Source: Coprothermobacter platensis DSM 11748 (GTDB lineage Bacteria > Coprothermobacterota > Coprothermobacteria > Coprothermobacterales > Coprothermobacteraceae). From it: 64,000 nt of DNA. The stretch spans positions 671,645-735,644 of the forward strand of contig NZ_KB899040.1 of the NCBI RefSeq assembly GCF_000378005.1, read 5' to 3'. The notes beneath the pieces were generated by a model. That model saw nothing but the letters and a program-made list of their open reading frames with translations, did no database searches and was not told the origin of the DNA. Shown here piece after piece: positions 38,864-52,684 of this stretch (position 1 is its first letter; each line of letters begins with the position of its first letter). A program made the position numbers and the translations under genes.

Positions 38864-39084
38864 GCGTAAAAAGGTACGTAAAGCCATTTACGTCGAAAAA
38901 AGTACTCTATACCATTTTTCTCAACAACCACAAGGCATTTTCCACCATGCCTGAAGAAAGCATTTAGAACCTTAAATGAACAGCTTTGATGAAGGACCAT
39001 AACGTCGAAATCTAGATTACTGGTTATAGAACCTTCCGGCAGTTCTTCTTTTTCATACCTAAACTTAATCTCGCGGCACGGCAT
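38860..39084 (-). CDS. Small hypothetical protein at the end of the hydrogenase operon
   Basis: A 74-residue frame (77 if a TTG at 39093 is used) that overlaps the end of mbhN by about 20 bases and stops inside the -35 box of the tRNA promoter. I do not recognise it. The predicted product is mixed alpha/beta in character with two cysteines in the middle (S-C-S-F and K-C-L-V) and a basic, aromatic end. No good ribosome binding site is visible, so it could be chance. Its place directly after the ferredoxin-like subunit is the only reason to take it seriously. Confidence 0.4.
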   Translation of the reverse strand: MPCREIKFRYEKEELPEGSITSNLDFDVMVLHQSCSFKVLNAFFRHGGKCLVVVEKNGIEYFFRRKWLYVPFYA

Positions 39085-39616
39085 GTTCTTCAATATATTT
39101 CTCTATGCCTGCTTCTATTTCTTCAGGCGTTTTCTCGCGTCTGCACTTGGGACAAACCGAAGCTCTAACCAACGTTTCTGGCGTGTATTTCTTGAATTGT
39201 CGAACAACCAAGGTTCGAGCCGGGCGAAGAATCTTACTACCGCATACGGGACACTCTACATAGGGAACACCATCATTAAGCTTCTCCTTAGTCCTATCTG
39301 TATCTACATATAATCCACTTTTATCATCACCACTTAATGCTGTCGTAGGGCAAGCATCTATACAGTACCAGCAATATATGCATACACCGTAATCGATTTC
39401 ATAATGGAAAAAGTCGCCTTTCTTATCATCAATCGTTATAGCACTGGGCGGACAAACACGCTCACATTGGCGGCAACCGGTGCAATCTTCGGAATCATAT
39501 TGAGGCTTGCCTCTCCACTTAGGTGGTACCTTAACAGGTTCTTTCGGAAAAGGCTTCACCACGGGCCCGCCGATCAACGTATCAACAAGTTTTCCAAAAA
39601 TCTCACCGAACGGCAT
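39065..39616 (-). CDS. mbhN: Membrane-bound hydrogenase ferredoxin-like subunit (MbhN/NuoI-like) with extra C-terminal cysteine domain
   Basis: Carries electrons from ferredoxin into the complex through two [4Fe-4S] clusters, bound by C45/C48/C51 with C89 and C79/C82/C85 with C55. After about residue 115 there is an added domain with two C-x-x-C pairs (C122/C125 and C155/C158) about 30 residues apart, which looks like a zinc ribbon or rubredoxin-like site. The plain subunit usually ends before that. GGGGAGA lies eight bases before the ATG; the gene starts one base after mbhJ ends. Confidence 0.9.
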   Translation of the reverse strand: MPFGEIFGKLVDTLIGGPVVKPFPKEPVKVPPKWRGKPQYDSEDCTGCRQCERVCPPSAITIDDKKGDFFHYEIDYGVCIYCWYCIDACPTTALSGDDKSGLYVDTDRTKEKLNDGVPYVECPVCGSKILRPARTLVVRQFKKYTPETLVRASVCPKCRREKTPEEIEAGIEKYIEEHAVPRD

Positions 39617-40090
39617 CTATATCGTCTCCCCATGTTCAGAAATTTTAACGACTTCCTTATGATAGTTACCTTTACGCTTGAGTTCCAGCACCTCAGCTGC
39701 CTTTAAAATACCAACCATTATCCCCTCCGGTTTAGGAGGACAACCGAAAACGTAGACGTCCACAGGGACTAATGTATCCAGTGGCCCTGCAACGCTGTAA
39801 CCGCCTCTGAAAACCCCACCCGTTATGCCACAAACGCCTACAACGACAATTGCCTTTGGATCCGGAACTTGGTCGATAACACGGAGGACACTTTCCTTTG
39901 CAACGGCAGTTACGGGCCCTGTAGCTACGACTATATCAGCATGTCTTGGGCTACCAACCAACTTCACACCAAACCGCTCCGCGTCGTATTTCGGTGTTAA
40001 CGCAGCCAGTATTTCTATGTCACATCCATTGCAACTTCCTGTGTTCAAATGATAAATCCAAAGCGATTTTTCAGGCTTTAATATGTCCAT
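39617..40090 (-). CDS. mbhJ: Membrane-bound NiFe hydrogenase small subunit (MbhJ/NuoB-like)
   Basis: Holds the proximal [4Fe-4S] cluster next to the NiFe site. 157 residues; the cluster cysteines are C20 and C23 (S-C-N-G-C-D), one in G-V-C-G-I-T-G-G near 86 and one in G-C-P-P-K-P-E-G near 116. This is the short group 4 form, lacking the extra clusters of soluble hydrogenase small subunits. The S-C-N-G-C-D form fits hydrogenases rather than complex I NuoB (which has C-C). GGAGGGG precedes the ATG. Confidence 0.94.
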   Translation of the reverse strand: MDILKPEKSLWIYHLNTGSCNGCDIEILAALTPKYDAERFGVKLVGSPRHADIVVATGPVTAVAKESVLRVIDQVPDPKAIVVVGVCGITGGVFRGGYSVAGPLDTLVPVDVYVFGCPPKPEGIMVGILKAAEVLELKRKGNYHKEVVKISEHGETI

Positions 40091-40103: not shown

Positions 40104-41054
40104 CTAAATCAAAGATAGTAAGAGCAGAACGATAGAAGCCAAGCCTGGACCAAGCAAGTAGAATTTGGCACCTTGCTCCACTCGGAATCGTCCGCTGACA
40201 GCACGAGGAACAGTGTAAATCACCAGCACCATAAGTAAAGTTCCGAGAAGCGTCATAATAATATTCAGCCATATATTGCTTGTCACAGGGCTCAAGAAAA
40301 TTGTCCAAAGAAAATATGCATATAGAAGCAATTTCATATGCTTTATCCCGAACAGCACTCCCAATCTCGGTCCATGCATTTCAGCACCATAACCATCCAC
40401 TATTTCAGTCTCCGCCTCTGGTATATCGAAAGGAACCGCACCCACAATAGCTGGTCCAAGTATCAATAACACGAGGAAACTACCGAGAAAAATGGGGTCG
40501 AGTAGCAGCAAGGCCATCTTTTGTTTCAGCACTAAAAAACCTGCTATGGAAAAAATGGTGCTAACAGGCAAACCTGTTAAAAGGATGGCTCTATACCCCA
40601 TAGCGACAATAACTAGAATGAAGGGAATTTCATAACTCAGAAGCATAGAAACCTCCCTTGAAGCACCAACCATGGTATAGGGCGATTTACCACCGAAACC
40701 TATAAGCACATAAACAATGGCAAGCAGGGCAAACACATAAGCCAATATAATCAGGTCGCCACTGGTAGATAACAACTGTGTATAGCCACCAACAGTAGGC
40801 ATGGGCAGAATACTTAAGCCTACTACAACTGCTATGATGCCTACTATTAATGCAACATCTGATACTATGGAGCTGCTTCTTGTAGCTGTCTTCCCACGTT
40901 TTCTAAATAACTTCAAAAAATCTGTAATGTCCTGCCAAAAAGGTGGCCCGTATCGCCCCTGTAAATGGGCAACAATCTTTCTATCTATACCGCCTATAAG
41001 CAGCGACCAAATAAACAGAGCTATAAGCCAGAGTACCCATACACCTATAATCAT
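40104..41054 (-). CDS. mbhM: Membrane-bound hydrogenase membrane anchor (MbhM/NuoH-like)
   Basis: The NuoH-type subunit that links the hydrophilic arm to the ion-translocating membrane arm. About 316 residues, eight helices, with R-K-I-V-A-H-L-Q-G-R-Y-G-P-P near residue 25 and the conserved acidic loop F-D-I-P-E-A-E-T-E near 214. The ATG at 41054 is preferred (its A is the last base of the preceding TAA, and AGGGGGTGG lies five bases upstream); a GTG nine bases earlier is the alternative. Confidence 0.94.
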   Translation of the reverse strand: MIIGVWVLWLIALFIWSLLIGGIDRKIVAHLQGRYGPPFWQDITDFLKLFRKRGKTATRSSSIVSDVALIVGIIAVVVGLSILPMPTVGGYTQLLSTSGDLIILAYVFALLAIVYVLIGFGGKSPYTMVGASREVSMLLSYEIPFILVIVAMGYRAILLTGLPVSTIFSIAGFLVLKQKMALLLLDPIFLGSFLVLLILGPAIVGAVPFDIPEAETEIVDGYGAEMHGPRLGVLFGIKHMKLLLYAYFLWTIFLSPVTSNIWLNIIMTLLGTLLMVLVIYTVPRAVSGRFRVEQGAKFYLLGPGLASIVLLLLSLI

Positions 41055-44000
41055 TACATCCACCCCCTGCCAACAATGAACGCAACAATAAAGAATAGAA
41101 CGATGTACGTAGCATAATCGTTTATAACTCCCGTATAGCTGGAGCGCACTACATCAGCAAAGAAATCAAAGAAGCCTGTGAGATATGAATACCCAATTTC
41201 TATAGCATGTACGGAAGCCTTAGATATCCAAAATCCATAAGGGTAGAACAGATCTTCGAAACCCATGGTCGCTTTTTCTGGTTTGAAAATGGCACTTCCC
41301 GTGTATACTTCTCCTTCACGACGAGATTTCCCAAACAAGGGAAGAAGGCATATAACTGATATGATGAGCGTCATAAAGACAATCCAGAAAAATGCGCCAG
41401 TCCATGACGTTCCAACTGGTATGAAACTTACTCCTATAACTGCAAGAGCGCCTATGAGAAGAGATGCATTCTCCGCACCATTTTTAGCGGTAGTAGTGGT
41501 TCCAAACCAAAGCATGAGCCAACGGGCACTATAAGCTATACTCAGTATCGTTCCAACCATGAGGACTGCCGTCAATAAAGGAGAAAACGCGTAAATGGAG
41601 CTCATATACACGCTCCATTTTGCTAAGAACCCTCCCGTCAACGGCATAGCAGCGGATGCCAACGAAGCAATGACTGTTGCAAATGTAAGTATGCGTCCTT
41701 TATTGCTTCGCTGATGCGCACTTGCTAAGAATAGAATCGCTTCAAAAAGCGCATAGGCAATTGCGAATAGAAATGGAGCATAAGTGACCAGCATGTTGCT
41801 TGTTCCACTTTGCAAACCTTTTGATGCGAGAAACATAGCAATGATAAGAAAACCCATATTGGACAAGGAAGAATAAGCGAGTACTTCTCGCAAATTCTCT
41901 TTGCCAAGAGCGATTAAACCTCCATACAAGATTTGAAACCCAGCTAAAACAAGCACAGGCATGAGCAATGAAGTTTCCACACCGAATTTATAAGAAACGA
42001 TTATGGCTCCCAGTGACAAGATTCCACTAAAAACAGCACCTACTACGGGAGAGCCCTCAGAATAGACCTTAATCATCCATCCATGAAAGCCAAATAAACC
42101 GAGTTTTATGAGAACGCCAATCGTTAACGCAAGCAACCACCAATCTTGTCCCAAATACTGGCCAGCTACGGCAAACATGAAAGCTATACCAGAACACATA
42201 GCCCAACCATAATATGAAGAAGCAATGTCCTTTTTACCCTCACCTACAACCATCATTAGGCCGCTCCAACTCAGTATCTCCCAGGCGATCAGTGTATTGA
42301 GCAATGTTTGCGAGGCAACAAGCCAAAGCACACTTACAAAAGCCAAGGCTACAGCCTCCATTTGAAAAACTTTATTCCTGCCCCAAACATTATCAGAAAG
42401 ACAAATCATGCAAAGAACAACAGCGCTCACAGCAATTAAACCAAGAAAAATCGTAGATGTTGTACTACCGTATGAAAGTCCGAGCATTGTAGCAACATTT
42501 CGAGGGAATACAGCCACACCGATGGCTACAAGAAGCCCGGCATAACCAAGCGCATGCACACTAATGTTGGATAGCAAGAACAAAGCGAGAATACAAAGCC
42601 ACATCCACCCATTGTTAACTAACCATGCAGAGATGTTGAAACCGAAATATTGCAGATCTACGCCTTGATCTGCCGTGAATTTTACTAGACCTTGTACAAA
42701 ATTTGAAATAAAAGGTGTGGCAAAAGACACCGTAATCAAGCCCACACCAAGCAATAGGTAACCGACCATTCTCCAGCTTAATTGTTCCCACCGTGGAGCA
42801 TGCCCACTTGTTGTTGCCAAATAAGAACCATAATAACAAGCTTCAATAATACTTCCTATAGCTAGGACGGCAGCGGCCCAATAAGAGTTTGCTTCGATTA
42901 AGCCAATAAGGATGAAAAGCTTTGAAAAGAATGTTATGAATGGAGGCATACTGGACAGGCCAAGGATAGAACCCAAATTAGCGTAGCTGGTGACAAAGCC
43001 GCTAAGCGTTCCACCTGCCTTATCTAAGTCTCTGTCAGGAACTTGCTGGGAAATATCGCCGCTTAACAGGAATGCCAGAGCCTTACTGATGCCATGCCCG
43101 AAAAGGTGCAATATGCCACCCACGAACCCAACGATATTGCCGGAAAATATGCCTAAAACCATGTAGCCCACTTGAGCAGTAGAAGAAAAGGCGAGCATAC
43201 GCTTTGCATCTTTTTGCCTATAAGCAGATATTTCTCCTACGAGCACGGTTAGAGCTGCAATTACTAACATAAACGAAATAAAACTCGGAATTTGTACCAA
43301 AAAGGAGTGAAAAACAATAAATGTGAAACGGACCATAGCAAGAACGCCTATTTTAATGACTGCACCTGACAATAAAGCAGAAATAGAAGCCGGTGCCGCT
43401 GGGTGGGCATCAGGAAGCCAGGCGTTAAGCGGCCAAATTGCTCCTTCCACGCCAAATCCAACAAACAAAGAAGCGATCGATAAAAGAAGAGTACCTGTAG
43501 GCATGGTTCCGATTTTCTGAGAAATGTCCCACATGTTGAGCGATCGTGTACCCTGATAGAGCAATATCAACGCGAACAAAACAAATGATGTTGCTAACGA
43601 TCCTAGAATGAGATATTTTATGCTTGCTTCGGAAGTTTCTGGCGTTCGATACGCATTAACAAGTGCATATGCGCTGATACTTGCTATTTCTAAAAACACA
43701 TACATGTTGAACAAATCGTTCGTCAGTGAAACGCCAGTAGCACCTGTAGCCATAAGTATTGTGAGAACTACAAAACGCAGCTCGTCATGGACGTGGAGAT
43801 ATGAAAAGTTATATATTAAACTCGCCAAAGTTATGAACCACAACAGAAGAGTAAGACCTATACCAAAGTTGTCTATCCAAAGAGCAATACCAAGCGGTGG
43901 TTTGAAACCAGACATAAATACGAATATGGGCTTTTGCATTGCTTTCGGCATTACAACAAAGAAACCAAAACCAAGTTCAAACAAGGAAAGAAGGATGGCT

Positions 44001-44119
44001 GTTATGGAAGGTACCCACTTCTTTTGTTTGAACAAAATGTTTATAAACGGCATGAGAAATGCCGTGAGCAAAGGTATACCTATCAAGAGCGCTGCAGGTT
44101 GATAAGCTTGCCAAGTCAT
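41054..44119 (-). CDS. Fused tandem antiporter-like subunit of the hydrogenase (MbhH + second H-like half + MbhI-like tail)
   Basis: A single 1021-residue frame holding two NuoL/M/N-type ion-channel modules. Half one (about 1-490) matches MrpD/MbhH: E in N-M-Y-V-F-L-E-I near 145, K in A-V-I-K-I-G near 254, and R-M-L-A-F-S-S-T-A-Q-V-G-Y near 305. Half two (about 495-940) has its own set: W-E-I-L-S-W-S-G near 620, V-L-I-K-L-G-L-F-G-F-H-G-W near 675 and R-E-V-L-A-Y-S-S-L-S-N-M-G near 755. The tail (about 945-1021) resembles the C-terminal lateral-helix part of NuoL or MbhI. No stop or frame break is seen at the junction. Neighbours are coupled by one-to-four-base overlaps. Confidence 0.9.
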   Translation of the reverse strand: MTWQAYQPAALLIGIPLLTAFLMPFINILFKQKKWVPSITAILLSLFELGFGFFVVMPKAMQKPIFVFMSGFKPPLGIALWIDNFGIGLTLLLWFITLASLIYNFSYLHVHDELRFVVLTILMATGATGVSLTNDLFNMYVFLEIASISAYALVNAYRTPETSEASIKYLILGSLATSFVLFALILLYQGTRSLNMWDISQKIGTMPTGTLLLSIASLFVGFGVEGAIWPLNAWLPDAHPAAPASISALLSGAVIKIGVLAMVRFTFIVFHSFLVQIPSFISFMLVIAALTVLVGEISAYRQKDAKRMLAFSSTAQVGYMVLGIFSGNIVGFVGGILHLFGHGISKALAFLLSGDISQQVPDRDLDKAGGTLSGFVTSYANLGSILGLSSMPPFITFFSKLFILIGLIEANSYWAAAVLAIGSIIEACYYGSYLATTSGHAPRWEQLSWRMVGYLLLGVGLITVSFATPFISNFVQGLVKFTADQGVDLQYFGFNISAWLVNNGWMWLCILALFLLSNISVHALGYAGLLVAIGVAVFPRNVATMLGLSYGSTTSTIFLGLIAVSAVVLCMICLSDNVWGRNKVFQMEAVALAFVSVLWLVASQTLLNTLIAWEILSWSGLMMVVGEGKKDIASSYYGWAMCSGIAFMFAVAGQYLGQDWWLLALTIGVLIKLGLFGFHGWMIKVYSEGSPVVGAVFSGILSLGAIIVSYKFGVETSLLMPVLVLAGFQILYGGLIALGKENLREVLAYSSLSNMGFLIIAMFLASKGLQSGTSNMLVTYAPFLFAIAYALFEAILFLASAHQRSNKGRILTFATVIASLASAAMPLTGGFLAKWSVYMSSIYAFSPLLTAVLMVGTILSIAYSARWLMLWFGTTTTAKNGAENASLLIGALAVIGVSFIPVGTSWTGAFFWIVFMTLIISVICLLPLFGKSRREGEVYTGSAIFKPEKATMGFEDLFYPYGFWISKASVHAIEIGYSYLTGFFDFFADVVRSSYTGVINDYATYIVLFFIVAFIVGRGWM

Positions 44120-44460
44120 CCCTTAAGCCTCCTTATTTTATTCATGTCAAAGGTCCCATAATACTTGTGGATCCACAGAGCGATACTCAGTGCCATAGCA
44201 GTAACTGCCACGTCAATAACGATAGAAGTGAGTGTAAGCGCTTGTGGTACTGGATCAGCTACTGCCAGCGTCGGTTTTATGTCAAGAAAGATAGGTGCTG
44301 TAGCATCGATGCCCCAGTAAGCTAAAGATACAATCATAAGATTAAGCCCAGAAGTCGCTACAGAAAGACTAATAATGATTTTTATGAGATTTTTCTTAGC
44401 TAAGACGCCGTAAAGGCCTGCTAAGAATACCCCAGCCATGAGTAGAAAAGCGATCATCAA
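44116..44460 (-). CDS. mbhG: MrpC/MnhC-like subunit of the hydrogenase (MbhG)
   Basis: NuoK-like subunit with three helices (about 3-21, 28-50, 78-105) over 114 residues. G-L-N-L-M-I-V-S near residue 38 and the D-P-V-P-Q-A-L-T-L-T-S-I-V-I block near 69-82 are the standard MrpC/NuoK features; the latter contains residues lining the ion path. It overlaps both neighbours in ATGA junctions. Confidence 0.94.
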   Translation of the reverse strand: MMIAFLLMAGVFLAGLYGVLAKKNLIKIIISLSVATSGLNLMIVSLAYWGIDATAPIFLDIKPTLAVADPVPQALTLTSIVIDVAVTAMALSIALWIHKYYGTFDMNKIRRLKG

Positions 44461-44879
44461 AAATCACCCTCTTTTGTTTCAGCCATCGAAGTGATTACTT
44501 CCACTATGCCGCCAAAAACTTTCACGCCTACAAAGAAATTCATTACAGCCACAACACCCGCACTTAAGATTTTTCCAGTGGTACCAACACCAAGGAAATC
44601 GCCCATAAAGAAACCTGTTTTCCAAAGACCTAAAACAGCTAAACCAGCAAAGCCTATTCCACCCAAAGCTTCTATAAGTGTGTATTGTTCAACGTTGAAG
44701 CGTTTTATAGTAGCATCAGCTCCGAAAACCAAGAAAAATAACGCTGCTATGCTCGCGACGATAACCCCACCTTGGAAACCTCCTCCCGGACTGAGGTGCC
44801 CATGCAAAACAACATAAGCACCAAATGTCATAGCAATGGGAGAAATAAAACGAACGATGGTCTTAGGCACCATAGTCAT
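44457..44879 (-). CDS. mbhF: MrpB/MnhB-like subunit of the hydrogenase (MbhF)
   Basis: A 140-residue protein with four helices. H-G-H-L-S-P-G-G-G-F-Q-G-G near residues 25-37 is the hallmark of MrpB/MnhB, and N-F-F-V-G-V-K-V near 113 is also typical. In the Mrp and Mbh complexes it is part of the sodium-translocating unit. Four-base overlaps on both sides. Confidence 0.95.
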   Translation of the reverse strand: MTMVPKTIVRFISPIAMTFGAYVVLHGHLSPGGGFQGGVIVASIAALFFLVFGADATIKRFNVEQYTLIEALGGIGFAGLAVLGLWKTGFFMGDFLGVGTTGKILSAGVVAVMNFFVGVKVFGGIVEVITSMAETKEGDF

Positions 44880-45262
44880 TTCTGGTCACCTTCTTTTAGA
44901 GACTTTATCATGTAAACAAGCCCGCTAATTGCAACAAAAAGAATAGTTGCTTCTCCTAACGTATCATAGCCCCTGTAACCAAACACTATGGAAGTTACTA
45001 CGTTAGCAGCGTTTACACCGCACTCTCCTCCCGCGAAGTTGCAAGACGGTTTTTGGCCAGTTTGCTGCAAGATTTCAGATTCCGTTATGCTCTTGCCGAT
45101 ATTTCCCATAGACAAAAGTGGATCTTTTGTTTTATTAGGAGATGTTTCCTTATAATCCGCCAAGGGCGTCGTGAACAGTTCATCGTGGCCCTTCACCGCT
45201 GAAAATATACCAAAAAACAAAAAACCGACGATAACCAGTGAAAGAAACTGCCGAAAGCTCAT
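44876..45262 (-). CDS. mbhE: MbhE-like subunit of the hydrogenase
   Basis: A 128-residue protein with a helix at each end (about 5-24 and 100-119) and a hydrophilic middle. N-V-V-T-S-I-V-F-G-Y-R-G-Y-D-T-L-G-E near 85-102 is the conserved block that in MrpA sits at the C-terminal end. In Mrp operons this segment is part of MrpA; in Mbh operons it is a separate gene, as here. Confidence 0.92.
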   Translation of the reverse strand: MSFRQFLSLVIVGFLFFGIFSAVKGHDELFTTPLADYKETSPNKTKDPLLSMGNIGKSITESEILQQTGQKPSCNFAGGECGVNAANVVTSIVFGYRGYDTLGEATILFVAISGLVYMIKSLKEGDQK

Positions 45263-45510
45263 TCTTTCACCTCCTTTGTCCGCTGTAAGATGACAAAGAA
45301 TATTATGGGCACTACAACCACACCCACCGCAGCTTCCGCAATTGCTACGTCAGGCGCATTTAACAAGAGAAATTCCAGTGCAACGAACGAACCCATCACA
45401 GCTTGCCCGATAACAGCCCTTACGAGGTCTTTTTCCAAAACAGTATACCAAGCCGTTATCAGCGCACCTATCAAGTTAATTACATGAAGCCACAATATGC
45501 TACCGCTCAT
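45259..45510 (-). CDS. mbhD: MbhD-like subunit of the hydrogenase (DUF4040)
   Basis: An 83-residue protein of three helices. A-P-D-V-A-I-A-E-A-A-V-G near residues 52-63 is the DUF4040 motif found in the C-terminal part of MrpA and in MbhD; it resembles NuoJ and carries an acidic residue in the ion path. Four-base overlap with mbhE and 11 bases with mbhC. Confidence 0.93.
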   Translation of the reverse strand: MSGSILWLHVINLIGALITAWYTVLEKDLVRAVIGQAVMGSFVALEFLLLNAPDVAIAEAAVGVVVVPIIFFVILQRTKEVKE

Positions 45511-45853
45511 CAGAACCGGCCTCCTTTTTCCCTTTTAAGTGATCAGTAACAGATTTACTCCACATAGGCACACCGGCATAATAGCAAGCTTGAGCGAGTA
45601 CATGCGAAGCAGTGGGGTTCGTAATAAGCATAAAGAGCGCTAACAATAGAGGTTTTACTCCAAAAGATGCAATCAAACCCAGGTTTATCTCTCTTATAAA
45701 CAAACCACACATTATACTTATACAGCCTAATGTAACATTTTTTGTCGATGTCTGCAATTTACAGTAAGGATCCGGCATTCTAAAGATTCCTACAACGCCT
45801 GCAAAATTAAAGAAAATACCTATCCCGTATAAAACATAAGCAACATAATCCAT
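45500..45853 (-). CDS. mbhC: MrpG/MnhG-like subunit of the hydrogenase (MbhC)
   Basis: A 117-residue protein with three helices. The first helix is followed by G-I-F-R-M-P-D-P-Y (about 22-30, normally G-L-L-R-F-P-D-x-Y), and N-P-T-A-S-H near 80 is the usual end of the third helix. Start ATG shares its A with the TGA stop of mbhB. Confidence 0.93.
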   Translation of the reverse strand: MDYVAYVLYGIGIFFNFAGVVGIFRMPDPYCKLQTSTKNVTLGCISIMCGLFIREINLGLIASFGVKPLLLALFMLITNPTASHVLAQACYYAGVPMWSKSVTDHLKGKKEAGSDER

Positions 45854-46107
45854 CAGAGCTCACCTCTAATATAACGAGAATAGGCAACAACCATAATAAA
45901 GTCTAATAATGCTATGACAAGAGCAATATCCAGGTAAATACCTCGATGCATTTCTAATCCCCAGAGTGCTAATATGATGGCCGTTATGGGGGATATGGTG
46001 GATATGGCAACTATGCGATCCATATCTTCGGGCCCCACGATAACCCGATACAACAACGCCACTGCGAAACATAGGAGAATAAACATAACAATAATCTCAG
46101 GGCTCAT
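45853..46107 (-). CDS. mbhB: MrpF/MnhF-like subunit of the hydrogenase (MbhB)
   Basis: An 84-residue, three-helix protein. Y-R-V-I-V-G-P-E-D-M-D-R-I-V-A near residues 21-35 is the conserved MrpF loop (usually R-x-x-x-G-P-x-x-x-D-R), whose aspartate is required for transport in Mrp antiporters. Overlaps mbhA by four bases. Confidence 0.94.
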   Translation of the reverse strand: MSPEIIVMFILLCFAVALLYRVIVGPEDMDRIVAISTISPITAIILALWGLEMHRGIYLDIALVIALLDFIMVVAYSRYIRGEL

Positions 46108-46610
46108 GAGAACAACCTCCTCGCAAAAGGTTCAGCGAAGCCATAAATTGCCTCCGCTCCCTCTTTTGGATCTTCCGTTTCCACATGTATCCAGTGAATG
46201 TACATTTTCTTGTTCTTTTCGTCTATTTCCATAGTAATAGTGCCCGGCGTTAACGTTATTGAATTGGCAATTAAGGTATAGGCCTCATCGGAAGGAAAAT
46301 CCGCATCGATCTCTACAATTCCTGGATAAATAGGAAGCTTAGGATTAAGGGTCCTTAAAGCAAGGTCTACGTTCGCTTTTACAATTTCGCGTAATAGTAC
46401 CAAAAAGTAAACAAATAGTGTAGGCCAGTTCAAGGGATTCAAAACATTTAATAGTTTAGTATCTAACCAGAGGTCATAGGTAAAAAGTGTAACTACAAAG
46501 GTCAAAATGATCCCAAAGATAATTTCTTGGATGTCCACAGACCATGTGAACAACATCCAGAAAATCATACTCAGGATCCATACACCAAAAAACGTCTCAG
46601 TTTTTTTCAT
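46104..46610 (-). CDS. mbhA: MrpE/MnhE-like subunit of the hydrogenase (MbhA)
   Basis: A 168-residue protein: two N-terminal helices (about 8-40), a further hydrophobic stretch near 62-82 and a soluble C-terminal domain. L-R-E-I-V-K-A-N-V-D-L-A near 73 and the T-L-T-P-G-T-I-T near 120 are the landmark MrpE blocks. In Pyrococcus this gene opens the mbh operon; here it follows the large catalytic subunit, so gene order is rearranged. Confidence 0.93.
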   Translation of the reverse strand: MKKTETFFGVWILSMIFWMLFTWSVDIQEIIFGIILTFVVTLFTYDLWLDTKLLNVLNPLNWPTLFVYFLVLLREIVKANVDLALRTLNPKLPIYPGIVEIDADFPSDEAYTLIANSITLTPGTITMEIDEKNKKMYIHWIHVETEDPKEGAEAIYGFAEPFARRLFS

Positions 46611-46629
46611 AACCTATCACCACCCATAT

Positions 46630-47712
46630 CTATCGATCCATACAGCTCATACACGGATCTATGTGCCCAACGATGATAGGAGCATCCGCTAAATTCGCTC
46701 CTCTTAGCATATGTTCTGAAGCTGGCAGATTGATCAAAGTAGGCGTGCGAATTTTCAAGCGAGCAGGTCTGTCTGTACCGTCGGTTATTAGATGATACAT
46801 GAGTTCCCCTCTTGGCGCTTCTACTCTACCAATGGTGTCATTGGGCTGAATTTTCAACACGGTTTTTGGATTTTTGATAGGCCCTTGAGGTATTTTATCC
46901 AGTACTTGTCTAATGATCTTTATGGATTCAAGTGCTTCCAATACCCTAACAAATGTCCGAGACCAGACATCCCCATCGTCCAGAACTATTAACTCAAAGT
47001 TCAAAGATGAATAAACCGAGTAAGTAGCTGTTTTACGCAAGTCTTCTCTTATGCCACAACCCCTTGCTGTAGGCCCTACAACACCAAGTAGGTGTGCTTC
47101 CTTCTGGGTGACAACACCAACATTCTTTGTTCTAGCCAATGTGCTTGCGTCTTTTGTCCATGTATCTTTAAGTTTCAAAGTCAGATCTTCCAACGTATTC
47201 ATGGCAGCCCGTATTTGATCAGCAATGTTTTCATCGATATCCCGCCTGACTCCGCCTATAGTGTTCATGGCGTAGTTAACACGGTTACCTGATAGCAGCT
47301 CAAGCATGTCCATGACCGCTTCCCTGCCAGACCATGTAAACATGAATAATGTATCAAACCCCATTTTGTGAGCCATTGCTCCTAAGTACATTAAGTGGCT
47401 GTGTATACGCTCCAACTCAGCCGTAAGAACCCTGATATATTCAGCACGTTCGGGAATTTCCAGCCCCGCTGCTTTCTCCACAGCTAAGCAGTATGCCCAA
47501 CTATGGTGGAAGGAACAAATACCGCAGGTTCTTTCGACTAATCCCAGATCTTTTATGAAGGTCCTTTTCGTAGCGCTTTTCTCAACAGCCCTGTGGATGA
47601 AACCTATTTTTATTTCAGCGTCAGCAACCATTTCGCCTTCGAGCTCAAGTTCTATGTATTCGCCTTCTTCAAAAGCAGGATGGTATGGTCCCAAAGGAAA
47701 TTTATATCCCAT
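46630..47712 (-). CDS. mbhL: Membrane-bound NiFe hydrogenase large (catalytic) subunit
   Basis: Binds the NiFe centre that reduces protons to H2. Both nickel-binding pairs are present: C63/C66 in R-T-C-G-I-C-S-F-H-H and C354/C357 in D-P-C-M-S-C-M-D-R, so this is a true hydrogenase and not a complex I NuoD. G-P-Y-H-P-A-F near residue 8 is typical of group 4 enzymes. The protein ends at R360 directly after the last motif, with no C-terminal extension to be cleaved, as known for CooH-type and Ech-type subunits. 360 residues. Confidence 0.96.
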   Translation of the reverse strand: MGYKFPLGPYHPAFEEGEYIELELEGEMVADAEIKIGFIHRAVEKSATKRTFIKDLGLVERTCGICSFHHSWAYCLAVEKAAGLEIPERAEYIRVLTAELERIHSHLMYLGAMAHKMGFDTLFMFTWSGREAVMDMLELLSGNRVNYAMNTIGGVRRDIDENIADQIRAAMNTLEDLTLKLKDTWTKDASTLARTKNVGVVTQKEAHLLGVVGPTARGCGIREDLRKTATYSVYSSLNFELIVLDDGDVWSRTFVRVLEALESIKIIRQVLDKIPQGPIKNPKTVLKIQPNDTIGRVEAPRGELMYHLITDGTDRPARLKIRTPTLINLPASEHMLRGANLADAPIIVGHIDPCMSCMDR

Positions 47713-47724
47713 TACGATAGCCTC

Positions 47725-48114
47725 CTATGTCTCCAAATAAATGCCGCGTTTAGCATCATCAGGAATGATTAAACGTTTAGGTCTTGGATGATTGGAAAAT
47801 GTGATATCGAAAAGGTCCATAATTTCACGTTCTGCCCAATCAGCAGCCGGCAACAACGGAGTTATAGATGGAACAGTTTTGTCTTCAGGAACTTTCAATC
47901 TCAATGAAACAACCCAATCTCCTAAGGTGAAGTGGTACTGCATATAGAGATTCTCGTCTTGCGGATATGCAGTAATTGTAATAAAGCGCATATCATCTCT
48001 AAAATCTAAAACGAACTGCATAAGAGATGGTATATCTATGTCTACTATTTCTCTTTCTCCTTCACCTTTTATGCCATAATGTTCAAGTTTTGTCTGACTA
48101 ATTCCCGGCAACAA
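47725..48114 (-). CDS. mbhK: Membrane-bound hydrogenase NuoC-like subunit (MbhK)
   Basis: A 129-residue protein of the 30-kDa complex I family. The C-terminal signature W-A-E-R-E-I-M-D-L-F-D-I-T-F near residues 91-104, followed by P-R-P-K-R-L-I-I-P-D, is clear; the N-terminal half is divergent. Start is a TTG at 48114 after AAAGGGGG; it is the first gene of the hydrogenase operon. NuoC-like subunits help hold the catalytic and cluster subunits together. Confidence 0.92.
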   Translation of the reverse strand: MLPGISQTKLEHYGIKGEGEREIVDIDIPSLMQFVLDFRDDMRFITITAYPQDENLYMQYHFTLGDWVVSLRLKVPEDKTVPSITPLLPAADWAEREIMDLFDITFSNHPRPKRLIIPDDAKRGIYLET

Positions 48115-48253: not shown

Positions 48254-50503
48254 ATGAGAAAACGCTACAAAATTAATGGCATTGTACAAGGTGTTGGTTT
48301 TAGGCCATTTGTTGCAAGACTCGCCCAGAATTTGAATTTGACAGGATTCGTTCTCAACACTGGACAAGGGGTAACTATCGAAGTTCAAGGTCCAGAACAG
48401 TGCATAAATTCATTCGAGGAAAAATTGAATGATGAAAAACCGCACGGATCATTTTATATTGAATTTGACGTTTCTGATATAAACGAAATCGATGGAGAAA
48501 ACAAGTTCGTAATACTAAAATCGCAAAACACAGAAGACTTATTTACATTCATTCCCCCTGATCTAGCAACTTGCAGTGATTGTGTAAATGATATTTTTGA
48601 CAATACCAATAGACGATATCTCTATCCGTTAACAAACTGCACTAATTGTGGCCCTCGCTATACAGTGATAGAAAAACTTCCTTATGATAGACCAAACACG
48701 TCTATGAAGGCGTTCCCCATGTGTCATGAATGCGAGACCGAATATACTGACCCCAAGGACAGAAGGTTCCATGCGCAGCCCGTTGCTTGTCCCAAGTGCG
48801 GTCCTAAAACATATTTAGTGTCTAAAGATGGGAACATTATCGATGACGAGCAGCTAATGAAAACAGCTGATCTTCTTTTGAATGGTCACATTGTTTCCAT
48901 AAAAGGATTAGGTGGCTTTTTATTGGCGTGTGATGCTACTAATAAGAGCTCTGTGGAGAAATTGCGCCAATTAAAGGGACGTCCGAAAGAACCTTTCGCG
49001 CTTATGGCTGCATTAGATACCATAAAAGTGCATTGTTTCGTAAATGATGAACAAGAAACGTTATTGCGTTCAAGTGCAGCCCCCATTGTTCTACTAAAGA
49101 AAAAAGCCGAAAGCACATTGCCTGATAATGTCGCGCCTTTACAAAACTACTTAGGCTTCATGCTTCCTTATACGCCTATACACCACATGCTTCTACACTT
49201 GCTTCCACCATCTTTTATCTTGGTAATGACTTCCGCTAATGTGCACGGCGAAGTTATTTATTATGAGAATTCCGATATAGAAAAGTTGCTGCAAATGTCA
49301 GAATATGTGCTGACGCATGATCGGGCCATCGTGACACACGTAGACGACTCCGTAGTTCAAACACTCACTGACGGCCCGCACATAATAAGAAGAAGCAGAG
49401 GTTATGTACCATTACCTGTTAAGTTAAGCAGTAATGTTGGTCCTAACATACTTGCAACGGGTGGCGATCAAAAAGCTACGCCTGCGTTAGCCAAAAACGG
49501 TTATGCTGTACTTGGACAATATGTTGGAGACCTTGATAACCCGCGGACAATGAATGTCTACGAAAACATAATAGAACACTTAAAAAACCTCTTTCAAATC
49601 AAACCTCAGGTCGTAGCAACGGACAAGCATCCCACCTATTATTCGCACAAATATGCTTATGATACCGGACTCCCTGTGATAGAAGTGCAACACCATGTTG
49701 CCCATGCCCTATCCGCAATGGAGGAGAATCGTCTTTCTTCAGCGGTAGCAGTTGTCTATGATGGTACCGGCTACGGAGATGATGGTAAACTATGGGGGTC
49801 TGAAATCTTATTTATAGACGTTGCAAATTATGAACGTCTTTATCATTTTGACTATATGCCTTTGGTCGGTGGAGAAAAAGCCATAAAAGAACCTTGGCGC
49901 TTGGCAGCAGCTTTTCTAACGCCTTTGGAAGCCGAAAAGCGTTTCGGAAATAATGGAAAGCGTGTAAATGAGCTGGCACGCACATGGCGTGCTCCATTAG
50001 CCTGCGGTATGGGACGCATTTTTGACACTGTTTCAGCCTTGTTGAATATATGCACATATGCCACATATGAAGGGCAGCCTGCACAGGAGCTTCAAATGAT
50101 TGCTGAGTTGAGTGATGAGACAGGTGATTTTTCTGACAATGTCAGCATACAAAACAACGTGATTAACACAAAAGACTTAGTAGACAATGTCATATCGCTT
50201 ATTCATTCTGGCTATGATAAATCGGACATAGCAAAGATATTTCATAATACAGTAGTGAGTTTGACAGTTAATATATTGGAAAGAATAGGCAGAGAAAACA
50301 TCGTTCTTACTGGAGGTTCATTCCAAAATGCTCTGCTTTATGGGAATATATACTTTAAACTAAAAGAAAAAGGATTCCATGTTTTTCGGAACAGAAATGT
50401 ACCTATGAACGATAACGGTATCGCCTTAGGGCAAATAGCATACGTTTTAAGGAGGTTTGATAATAATGTGTCTTGGAATACCTATGCAGATAAAAGAAAT
50501 TAA
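48254..50503 (+). CDS. hypF: Carbamoyltransferase HypF
   Basis: First enzyme of cyanide-ligand synthesis for the NiFe centre; turns carbamoyl phosphate into a HypE-bound thiocarboxamide. 749 residues: acylphosphatase domain (about 1-88, G-I-V-Q-G-V-G-F-R-P-F), two zinc fingers (C-S-D-C with C-T-N-C, then C-H-E-C with C-P-K-C, about 105-180), a YrdC-like domain (about 195-385) and the Kae1-like domain (about 400-749) with V-Q-H-H-V-A-H-A near 480. No frame break. It opens the hyp operon, divergent from the hydrogenase operon. Confidence 0.97.
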   Translation: MRKRYKINGIVQGVGFRPFVARLAQNLNLTGFVLNTGQGVTIEVQGPEQCINSFEEKLNDEKPHGSFYIEFDVSDINEIDGENKFVILKSQNTEDLFTFIPPDLATCSDCVNDIFDNTNRRYLYPLTNCTNCGPRYTVIEKLPYDRPNTSMKAFPMCHECETEYTDPKDRRFHAQPVACPKCGPKTYLVSKDGNIIDDEQLMKTADLLLNGHIVSIKGLGGFLLACDATNKSSVEKLRQLKGRPKEPFALMAALDTIKVHCFVNDEQETLLRSSAAPIVLLKKKAESTLPDNVAPLQNYLGFMLPYTPIHHMLLHLLPPSFILVMTSANVHGEVIYYENSDIEKLLQMSEYVLTHDRAIVTHVDDSVVQTLTDGPHIIRRSRGYVPLPVKLSSNVGPNILATGGDQKATPALAKNGYAVLGQYVGDLDNPRTMNVYENIIEHLKNLFQIKPQVVATDKHPTYYSHKYAYDTGLPVIEVQHHVAHALSAMEENRLSSAVAVVYDGTGYGDDGKLWGSEILFIDVANYERLYHFDYMPLVGGEKAIKEPWRLAAAFLTPLEAEKRFGNNGKRVNELARTWRAPLACGMGRIFDTVSALLNICTYATYEGQPAQELQMIAELSDETGDFSDNVSIQNNVINTKDLVDNVISLIHSGYDKSDIAKIFHNTVVSLTVNILERIGRENIVLTGGSFQNALLYGNIYFKLKEKGFHVFRNRNVPMNDNGIALGQIAYVLRRFDNNVSWNTYADKRN

Positions 50504-50699
50504 TGGTAACAAGGCTCTTGCCACGTTTATGAATGTGGAAAGAGAAATCAGGATTGACGTGGTGCCAGGGGTAAAAGTTGGCGACTACGTCATGATTCAT
50601 GCTGGTATGGCCATAGAAATAATGGAAGAGGAAGAAGCTAAAGAAACACTCGAAGTTTGGAAAGAGTTAAATGACGAACAGGAAATTTTCCTCAGATAA
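50466..50699 (+). CDS. hypC: Hydrogenase assembly chaperone HypC
   Basis: A 77-residue chaperone that carries the Fe(CN)2CO unit with HypD and delivers it to the large subunit. It starts M-C-L-G-I-P, where the cysteine must follow the initiator methionine, so the ATG at 50466 is right rather than an upstream start at 50457. AAGGAGG lies ten bases upstream. It overlaps hypF by 38 bases and hypD by 29. Confidence 0.95.
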   Translation: MCLGIPMQIKEINGNKALATFMNVEREIRIDVVPGVKVGDYVMIHAGMAIEIMEEEEAKETLEVWKELNDEQEIFLR

Positions 50700-51723
50700 C
50701 CCCGCGGTACTGATGGAAGTATGTGGAACGCATACCCATGAGTTGTTCAGAACTGGCATACGTTTCTCACTTCCCGATTGGGTGAGATTAATTAGCGGTC
50801 CCGGATGTCCCGTTTGTGTTACCGACGACAGAGATTTAGCCAAAATTATAACTATGGCAAGAACATACAGTGTAACAGTATTGACCTTTGGGGATATGCT
50901 TAGAGTACCTACTCCATACGGTTCTTTGGCTACGCTTAGAAGCGAAGGAAAGAACGTACAAATCGTTTATTCACCCGTCGATGCACTATCTTATGCACGT
51001 GAGCATCAGGAAGAACAATGTGTCTTTTTTGCCGTCGGTTTTGAAACCACCATGCCTGCAGTGGCAGTTGCTATCCAAGACACCGTAAATAGTCGAGATG
51101 TGCAGAACCTGTACTTTCTTATAAACCATAAAAAAGTAATTCCAGCGTTAGATATCCTTTTGAGCTCTAAGCGTGTGAATGTCGATGGTCTAATTCTACC
51201 TGGGCATGTATCTGCAATTATCGGGAAGGATGTCTACGAACCATTACTATATAAACATCATATTCCTGGTGTAGTTACTGGCTTTTCGAAAGATCAGTTA
51301 GCTTTTGGACTGAACCTTCTCATGCACCTCGTTCTGCATGGTCAGGTCAGTGTGTTGAACGCGTATCCAGAAGTAGTAAGAGATGGTGGGAACAAAGAGG
51401 CACAAAACCTGATTGATATGTATTTTGAACCGACAGATGCATATTGGAGAGGTTTAGGTTTTATTCCACAGAGCGCAATGAAGCTTAAAGAAAAGTTTTC
51501 GTCTGTGGACGCTGAAAAAGCTTTTCCTGTGGACGACGTTGAGAGCCAACCAATACCCGGATGTAAGTGTGCTGATGTTGTTATTGGTGCAACAGAACCG
51601 ATAAACTGTCCTTTGTTCGGAAAGGTCTGTACACCACGTAATCCTATAGGGCCTTGTATGGTTTCCTCAGAAGGCACGTGTTCAGCATGGTTCAGATATG
51701 GAGGCGAAGCAGTTCATGGATAA
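50671..51723 (+). CDS. hypD: Hydrogenase maturation protein HypD
   Basis: An Fe-S scaffold on which the Fe(CN)2CO group is put together. 350 residues with the family blocks E-V-C-G-T-H-T-H-E near residue 12, G-P-G-C-P-V-C-V-T near 45, G-F-E-T-T near 125, P-G-H-V-S near 175 and the C-terminal cysteines of the [4Fe-4S] cluster (P-G-C-K-C-A-D-V near 294 and on). The start overlaps the end of hypC. Confidence 0.96.
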   Translation: MTNRKFSSDNPAVLMEVCGTHTHELFRTGIRFSLPDWVRLISGPGCPVCVTDDRDLAKIITMARTYSVTVLTFGDMLRVPTPYGSLATLRSEGKNVQIVYSPVDALSYAREHQEEQCVFFAVGFETTMPAVAVAIQDTVNSRDVQNLYFLINHKKVIPALDILLSSKRVNVDGLILPGHVSAIIGKDVYEPLLYKHHIPGVVTGFSKDQLAFGLNLLMHLVLHGQVSVLNAYPEVVRDGGNKEAQNLIDMYFEPTDAYWRGLGFIPQSAMKLKEKFSSVDAEKAFPVDDVESQPIPGCKCADVVIGATEPINCPLFGKVCTPRNPIGPCMVSSEGTCSAWFRYGGEAVHG

Positions 51724-52684
51724 CATGGATAAGATTCCTCTAAGTGTAGGCAGCGGTGGTGAAGAAATGGCCGAGTTTTTAAAGACCGTAGTTTTCCCAA
51801 ATTTAAAAGAGAAAATCGATGGGGACGCCGCTGTTATTGATGGTATAGCATTCACCATTGATAGTTTTGTTGCAGACCCTCCTTTTTTCCCGGGTGGATC
51901 TATTGGATCTTTGGCGGTTAGTGGGTCTATAAACGACTTGGTCGCTGTTGGAGCAGAACCCATGGCTCTTGCTTTAAGCTTTATAATAGAAGAAGGATTA
52001 GACACAGATGTAATAAGAAGAATCACTAGGGACATTCACCATCTATCCGAAATGAGTGGAGTACATGTGGTTACAGGCGACACAAAGGTTGTTCAGAAAG
52101 GTGCTGCTGATAAAGTCTTTATTACTAGTGCAGGTATAGGTAGAAAATGTATGGATTTTGGAGAACCCGTTGTGGGTGATAAAGTCATTGTTACAGGTGA
52201 CATAGCACGTCATGGTGTAGCCATGCTTTTAGCTTCAAATCAGTATCAATTAACAGCGGATATAGAAAGCGATTGTGAACCACTATATTGGTTGCCGCCT
52301 GCAATCAGTTCCTTTGGTTCCCATGTAAAATGGATGAGAGATCCAACCCGAGGCGGTGTAGGGACTATTCTTCATGAGTTTTCTAACGCTTTTTCATTGG
52401 GAGTTAGATTATTTGACCAAGATATTCCTATAAAGCCAGAAGTTAGGGGCGTTTGCGAACTGTTAGGTTTAGAACCACTCCATTTGGCATCCGAAGGGCG
52501 TATGGTTATCATAGTGGACAATTCCAATGCGGATGCATTGATAAATGAACTCTTAAGTCATGCCCCTGGCAGTAGAATCATAGGTGAAGTAACTTCTGAC
52601 CATAAAAGCGTGACTCGCGTCGTAGACAATTACGAAACATTCGTTCCACCTTTAACAGGGGAAATACTCCCCAGGATATGCTGA
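51716..52684 (+). CDS. hypE: Carbamoyl dehydratase HypE
   Basis: Dehydrates the carbamoyl group to cyanide on its own C-terminal cysteine. About 322 residues ending P-R-I-C, the required tail. An AIR synthase-like ATP-binding fold: G-S-G-G near residue 12, D-S-F-V-A near 45, G-D-T-K-V-V near 117 and R-D-P-T-R-G-G near 212. The ATG at 51716 is preferred since GGAGG lies 11 bases upstream; an ATG at 51698 overlaps that site. It overlaps the hypD stop by eight bases. Confidence 0.95.
   Translation: MDNMDKIPLSVGSGGEEMAEFLKTVVFPNLKEKIDGDAAVIDGIAFTIDSFVADPPFFPGGSIGSLAVSGSINDLVAVGAEPMALALSFIIEEGLDTDVIRRITRDIHHLSEMSGVHVVTGDTKVVQKGAADKVFITSAGIGRKCMDFGEPVVGDKVIVTGDIARHGVAMLLASNQYQLTADIESDCEPLYWLPPAISSFGSHVKWMRDPTRGGVGTILHEFSNAFSLGVRLFDQDIPIKPEVRGVCELLGLEPLHLASEGRMVIIVDNSNADALINELLSHAPGSRIIGEVTSDHKSVTRVVDNYETFVPPLTGEILPRIC

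Follow-up and report, generated by a model that had tools for sequence, protein, structure and literature searches.

The membrane-bound hydrogenase (MBH; 6cfw) of Pyrococcus furiosus combines Mrp-type subunits A to G with one antiporter-like subunit, MbhH, and a separate MbhI. The membrane-bound sulfane sulfur reductase (MBS, Mbx; 6u8y) of the same organism has two antiporter-like modules as separate proteins, MbsH and MbsH′, and its large subunit lacks the [NiFe] cysteine set; the glutamate equivalent to E21 of MbhL is reported to be absent in MBS (PMC7684303). Proton-relay residues have been named for MbsH (E138, E219, K250, H330 and K393) and for MbsH′ (E128, K217, K248, H336 and K399), with E128, K248 and H336 forming the central axis of MbsH′ (PMC7684303). 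Both subunits are placed beside MbsM; in MbsH′, helix HL runs along both proton modules, transmembrane helix (TM) 15 packs on the anchor MbsM, and the loop between TM15 and TM16 is found at the site of electron transfer (PMC7684303). We analyzed a stretch of 64,000 nucleotides from Coprothermobacter platensis DSM 11748 (contig NZ_KB899040.1, positions 671,645 to 735,644; hereafter the window), which carries a hydrogenase operon whose counterparts of MbsH and MbsH′ (H and H′) are joined in one frame, H::H′. We propose, with a probability of roughly two in three, that this frame encodes, as a single chain, a subunit of an Mrp-bearing [NiFe] hydrogenase of the MBH type, in which half 1 would pump and half 2, in Coprothermobacteraceae, would serve as a coupling spacer.

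A single minus-strand frame, ATG-started and stop-free, encodes the fusion (41054-44119; 1021 residues), in which an MbsH′-type tail follows two antiporter-like (PF00361) modules. Pfam placed PF00361 on two stretches of the protein, best at residues 134-425, and in a whole-genome profile search the two modules gave separate matches of 188 and 72 bits inside one stop-free frame of 1022 codons. An earlier note, made from the letters of the window, had described, for a hydrogenase, an uninterrupted frame with two modules and a lateral-helix-like tail, and this description was borne out. Its concern that the second half might not be antiporter-like was dispelled, since both halves matched the family (PF00361, NuoL/M/N, MrpA/D) by profile and half 2 also did so by predicted fold. 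The relatives that the note had suggested searching carried the fusion as well, again uninterrupted and with the operon genes in the same order: G001 (same genus, 73% identity), G004 (same family, 63%), and G005 and G006 (sister family of the order, about 33%).

These genomes also bear on whether the fusion is real. A sequencing or assembly error that deleted the stop codon between H and H′ would need only a single wrong base, and some relatives do have the two genes in-frame with one stop between them; however, the frame is open in the independent genomes G001, G004, G005 and G006, which refutes such an error, including the missed stop or assembly join near residue 490 that the note had feared. 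It is also highly improbable that two proteins result from this frame, by cutting of the chain or by translation in two parts, leaving the fusion without effect on the complex. H and H′ are usually encoded by separate genes, but a search for an internal start found no start codon bearing a Shine-Dalgarno-like stretch near the junction, and the frame stays open across two families. Further, CooM, a comparable chain, was seen as a 136-kDa protein on a gel (PMC5371261).

The best PDB match of half 1 was MbsH (6u8y_H), with 222.8 bits; MbhH (6cfw_H) scored lower, with 203.6 bits. In the alignment, the equivalents of E138, E219, K250, H330 and K393 were E144, E225, K256, H338 and K400, a full set that includes the TM7 Glu (E219) of MbsH. 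Since none of the residues named for MbsH is missing, half 1 would be a working MbsH-type proton module.

Half 2 alone had MbsH′ (6u8y_X) as its best PDB match, and with a profile of the second halves and free-standing H′ proteins, 6u8y_X was clearly the top match, aligned along its whole length including the tail. Half 2 retains the TM5 Glu (E614), the TM7 Lys (K672) and the TM12 Lys (K834). Unlike MBS, it lacks equivalents of K248 and H336: Leu703 replaces the TM8 Lys and Phe785 the TM11 His, while Tyr789 stands for the neighboring TM11 His and Glu793 for a TM11 Lys. These positions were compared in 31 aligned proteins (4 from Coprothermobacteraceae, 2 from the sister family and 25 other H′-type proteins). 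None of the four Coprothermobacteraceae proteins had the TM8 Lys or either TM11 His; they had Phe or Tyr at H336 and Tyr at its neighbor. Lys or Arg at TM8 was kept in 25/25 other H′-type proteins and 2/2 sister-family proteins (0/4 in Coprothermobacteraceae), and the H336 His in 23 of the 25. The Lys residues corresponding to K672 and K834 were invariant (31/31).

These assignments altered two proposals of the earlier note. Membrane Lys residues near 254 and 675 had been paired across the modules but are not equivalent, K256 being the TM8 Lys of half 1, whose TM7 carries Glu225, and K672 the TM7 Lys of half 2, whose TM8 carries Leu703. The suggestion that the modules are unequal stood, on the stronger ground that half 2 has lost its TM8 Lys and TM11 His; the basis originally given, the ALFE motif (Glu793), carries less weight. 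The sister family also has Glu there, in proteins that possess the TM8 Lys and TM11 His, and Glu occurs as well in the MBS H′ of G004, so that this change was demoted as the key difference.

An AlphaFold2 model of half 2 from 31 rows (pLDDT 79, pTM 0.81) showed helices 7 and 12 broken, a feature expected of antiporter-like subunits, and matched MrpD, HycC, MbsH′ and NuoN by Foldseek. The arrangement of MBS, H and H′ modules with a TM15-16 tail on H′ and its lateral helix, was found here as a fusion. Substitution rates (NG86) were taken from G001 and G003, the only usable pair, as dS between the window and G001 was saturated. For half 1, the nonsynonymous rate (dN) was 0.035 and the synonymous rate (dS) 0.64; for half 2, dN was 0.071 and dS 1.63. 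By these values, both halves are under strong purifying selection; half 2 is maintained, since its dN is far below its dS, and decay of half 2 was ruled out.

The operon is transcribed in the order K-L-A-B-C-D-E-F-G-(H::H′)-M-J-N, all on the minus strand, with H, H′ and M ordered as in bacterial MBS-type operons. As in MBH, Mrp-type subunits A to G are present (E weakly), MbhL is the best PDB match of the large subunit L, and Glu16 of L aligns to E21 of MbhL (6cfw_L). Unlike the large subunit of MBS, L has all four [NiFe] Cys (CGIC, CMSC), as do all relatives of the fusion. Unlike MBH, the operon has no separate MbhI gene, and a second module stands in its place. Given the four [NiFe] Cys and Glu16 in L and the MbsH- and MbsH′-like halves, the complex is, judged from these residues, a hydrogenase with an MBS-like two-module arm. 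CooM, of the CO-induced CooMKLXUH hydrogenase, is alike in being a single chain with several antiporter-like modules, and its complex too is an energy-converting [NiFe] hydrogenase. It differs in operon order, in the absence of the Mrp A to G subunits that are encoded here, and in a length of about 1255-1282 residues with three PF00361 stretches in L042; the described chain, of about 1255 residues, has 29-33 predicted membrane helices (PMC4257681).

By analogy with MBS, half 2 and its TM15-loop-helix-TM16 tail would replace MbhI, and together they would sit between the anchor MbhM and half 1, relaying a conformational or electrostatic signal. In Coprothermobacteraceae, half 2 most likely carries no protons along the usual route; its proton path would be impaired or altered, and its role that of a coupling spacer. 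This role is favored because the Lys at TM8 and the two His at TM11 are lost. In the sister family, half 2 probably still pumps, since the TM8 and TM11 residues are kept. The main rival is that half 2 is a working second pump with a rearranged path, through Glu793 or other polar residues and water, yielding more ions per H2 than Pyrococcus MBH. Consistent with such a pump are the retained TM5 Glu and the invariant TM7 and TM12 Lys, the strong purifying selection and the full residue set in the sister family. However, four central positions differ together in 4/4 Coprothermobacteraceae sequences, two of the three central-axis residues of MbsH′ (PMC7684303) are lost, and H2 production is low in free energy, so that a second pump is not demanded. 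We favor the coupling spacer and consider an altered but working pump unlikely; the doubled ion-pumping unit proposed earlier is unsupported in the Coprothermobacter species studied here, whose half 2 lacks the usual central relay residues.

Several points weigh against the coupling spacer. Protons in half 2 could travel through other residues, such as Glu793 or Lys711 (Lys711 is Gln in G004), or along water chains, and HycC of Escherichia coli also lacks one conserved family Lys (PMC9474812), so that a single loss is not decisive for function. The TM8 motif is one residue shorter in Coprothermobacteraceae (SLG versus SKxG), with TM7 and the SGILS block anchoring the alignment. A full-length model from five fused sequences was poor (pLDDT 42.5) and gives no packing of the halves; the evidence consists of sequences and the predicted model of half 2. 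Tentatively, a broader view may be taken, in which a second module was locked to the first in one chain, had its relay switched off in one family and was kept as a mechanical or electrostatic coupler.

The authors of the MBS study ask what effect adding or inactivating one pump would have (PMC7684303). The question touched here is how ion-pump number is fitted to redox free energy in complex I relatives, for which Coprothermobacteraceae, with an apparently disabled half 2, and the sister family, with a complete one, form a natural pair. If the proposal is true, comparison of the families would show the number of pumps that a particular redox step is able to power. Because a half 2 without central relay residues is still under strong selection, a coupling role apart from pumping would be supported. 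The fusion also sets the modules at 1:1, which is convenient for expression and mutagenesis.

The distribution of the fusion was examined across the nine genomes of the phylum in our set and beyond. In addition to the four relatives (G005 and G006 being records L055 and L056), G003 held both pieces of the fusion, split by contig ends; G002 (78% complete) gave no match to it, and the distant phylum members G007 and G008 had no fusion. A profile survey of 386 bacterial genomes yielded, among the matches listed, uninterrupted matches to both halves in this taxonomic order only, a result that is not a total count, since fusions may show as single modules. A check of long frames added one further H::H′ fusion (1088 residues, G051) and a CooM-like chain of 1282 residues with three PF00361 stretches (G031). 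Open frames above 900 residues in G240, G249, G330 and the MBS of G004 were rejected as fusions, being adjacent genes read through a stop. A Coprothermobacteraceae MBS-type cluster (L045, G004:C1:93500-112500) has H and H′ in one frame with a single TAG between them. Plasmid records gave just single-module MrpD-like matches, from haloarchaea. No description of this H::H′ fusion was found in the open-access literature; for strain 3DAC, of a related clade, MBH and MBS clusters are reported and a fusion is unmentioned (PMC10356935).

In phylogenetic trees, the fused first halves formed one clade (99/97), as did the fused second halves (97/90, with long branches). From this monophyly in both trees, we infer a single fusion event in the order, predating the divergence of its two families. 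H and H′ abut or overlap in MBS-type operons, and in 3/7 (L093, L094, L045) they are in-frame with one stop between them. Since loss of that stop would yield a fusion, H::H′ probably arose by stop-codon loss between adjacent mbsH- and mbsH′-like genes. The fusion in G051 (L092, G051:C53), from another bacterial phylum, likewise lies between MrpC-like and MbhM-like genes and has the same type of tail. It differs in keeping every H′ relay residue and in a half 1 TM11 His position that aligns to Leu. From its gene content it is probably part of an MBS-type complex, because the large-subunit candidates of that genome lack the [NiFe] Cys set; its contig stops before the large subunit. A common origin with the G051 fusion was disfavored for half 1 (approximately unbiased [AU] test, p 0.01); for half 2 the AU p was 0.06, with long branches.

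Among the sampled bacterial Mrp-linked clusters with [NiFe] Cys, H and H′ were separate genes, and three clusters (L095, L097, L103) had a third module, also as separate genes. The earlier statement that Mbh hydrogenases normally have one module is correct for Pyrococcus but not for these bacterial complexes, which have two and sometimes three. Such clusters (for example L099, L100, L107, L109 and L110) resemble the present operon in their [NiFe] Cys, Mrp subunits and two modules, but differ in having separate genes, the order M-J-K-L-H′-DE-F-G-H-A-B-C-N and a second Cys motif, CYCCTER. At the H′ TM5 Glu, [NiFe]-type complexes (L099, L100, L104, L106, L107, L108, L109, L110, L103, L097, L095, L036, L037) had Gly in 6/13 and Asp in 2/13, and MBS-type complexes (L035, L096, L098, L102, L093, L094, L045) had Glu in 7/7. 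This comparison suggests that H′ may have been weakened repeatedly where the complex makes H2. Two modules as separate genes and a multi-module chain, CooM, were known; what is new is an H::H′ fusion in an MBH-type complex, together with relay loss in the second module.

Table. Features of the H::H′ locus, in window coordinates.
Feature	Position	Strand	Basis
H::H′ fusion, 1021 residues	41054..44119	-	Pfam, genome search; conserved in G001, G004, G005, G006
Half 1, residues 1-486, MbsH-like; E144, E225, K256, H338, K400 kept	42662..44119	-	Best PDB match 6u8y_H; residue table
Half 2, residues 487-1021, MbsH′-like; E614, K672, K834 kept; Leu703, Phe785, Tyr789 changed	41057..42661	-	Best PDB match 6u8y_X; model pLDDT 79
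Half 2 tail, residues 908-1017: predicted TM15, loop (low confidence), long helix, TM16	41069..41398	-	Helices 422-449, 479-506, 513-531 of model m918c27989abc; same region in MbsH′ (weak in single-sequence alignment; profile)
Leu703 codon; Lys or Arg in 25 other H′-type and two sister-family proteins	42011..42013	-	Alignment
Glu793 codon, ALF-E change; common to G005, G006	41741..41743	-	Alignment
MbhK / NuoC-like	47725..48114	-	PF00329
MbhL-like [NiFe] large subunit; four Cys ligands (CGIC, CMSC)	46630..47712	-	Best PDB match 6cfw_L, 304 bits
MbhA / MrpE-like	46104..46610	-	Operon position, homologues
MbhB / MrpF-like	45853..46107	-	Homologues
MbhC / MrpG-like	45500..45853	-	Homologues
MbhD-like	45259..45510	-	PF13244
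MbhE-like, weak	44876..45262	-	PF20501, 21.5 bits, under Pfam cut-off
MbhF / MrpB-like	44457..44879	-	PF04039; NF006248 above cut-off
MbhG / MrpC-like	44116..44460	-	PF00420
MbhM / NuoH-like membrane anchor	40104..41063	-	PF00146; best PDB match 6cfw_M
MbhJ / NuoB-like small subunit, four Cys	39617..40090	-	PF01058
MbhN / NuoI-like, two 4Fe4S motifs	39065..39616	-	Fer4
Putative hypF, hypC, hypD, hypE ([NiFe] maturation), divergent neighbors	48254..52684	+	Named from translations read by eye

The C-terminal extension of [NiFe] large subunits is usually removed in maturation. L ends right after DPCMSCMDR, without such an extension, and the same is seen in the relatives of the fusion. The genome also offers a one-module comparison inside the same cell: at L046 (G000:C1:44000-63000) it encodes a second group 4 hydrogenase, which has no Mrp genes and carries [NiFe] Cys and one antiporter-like subunit.

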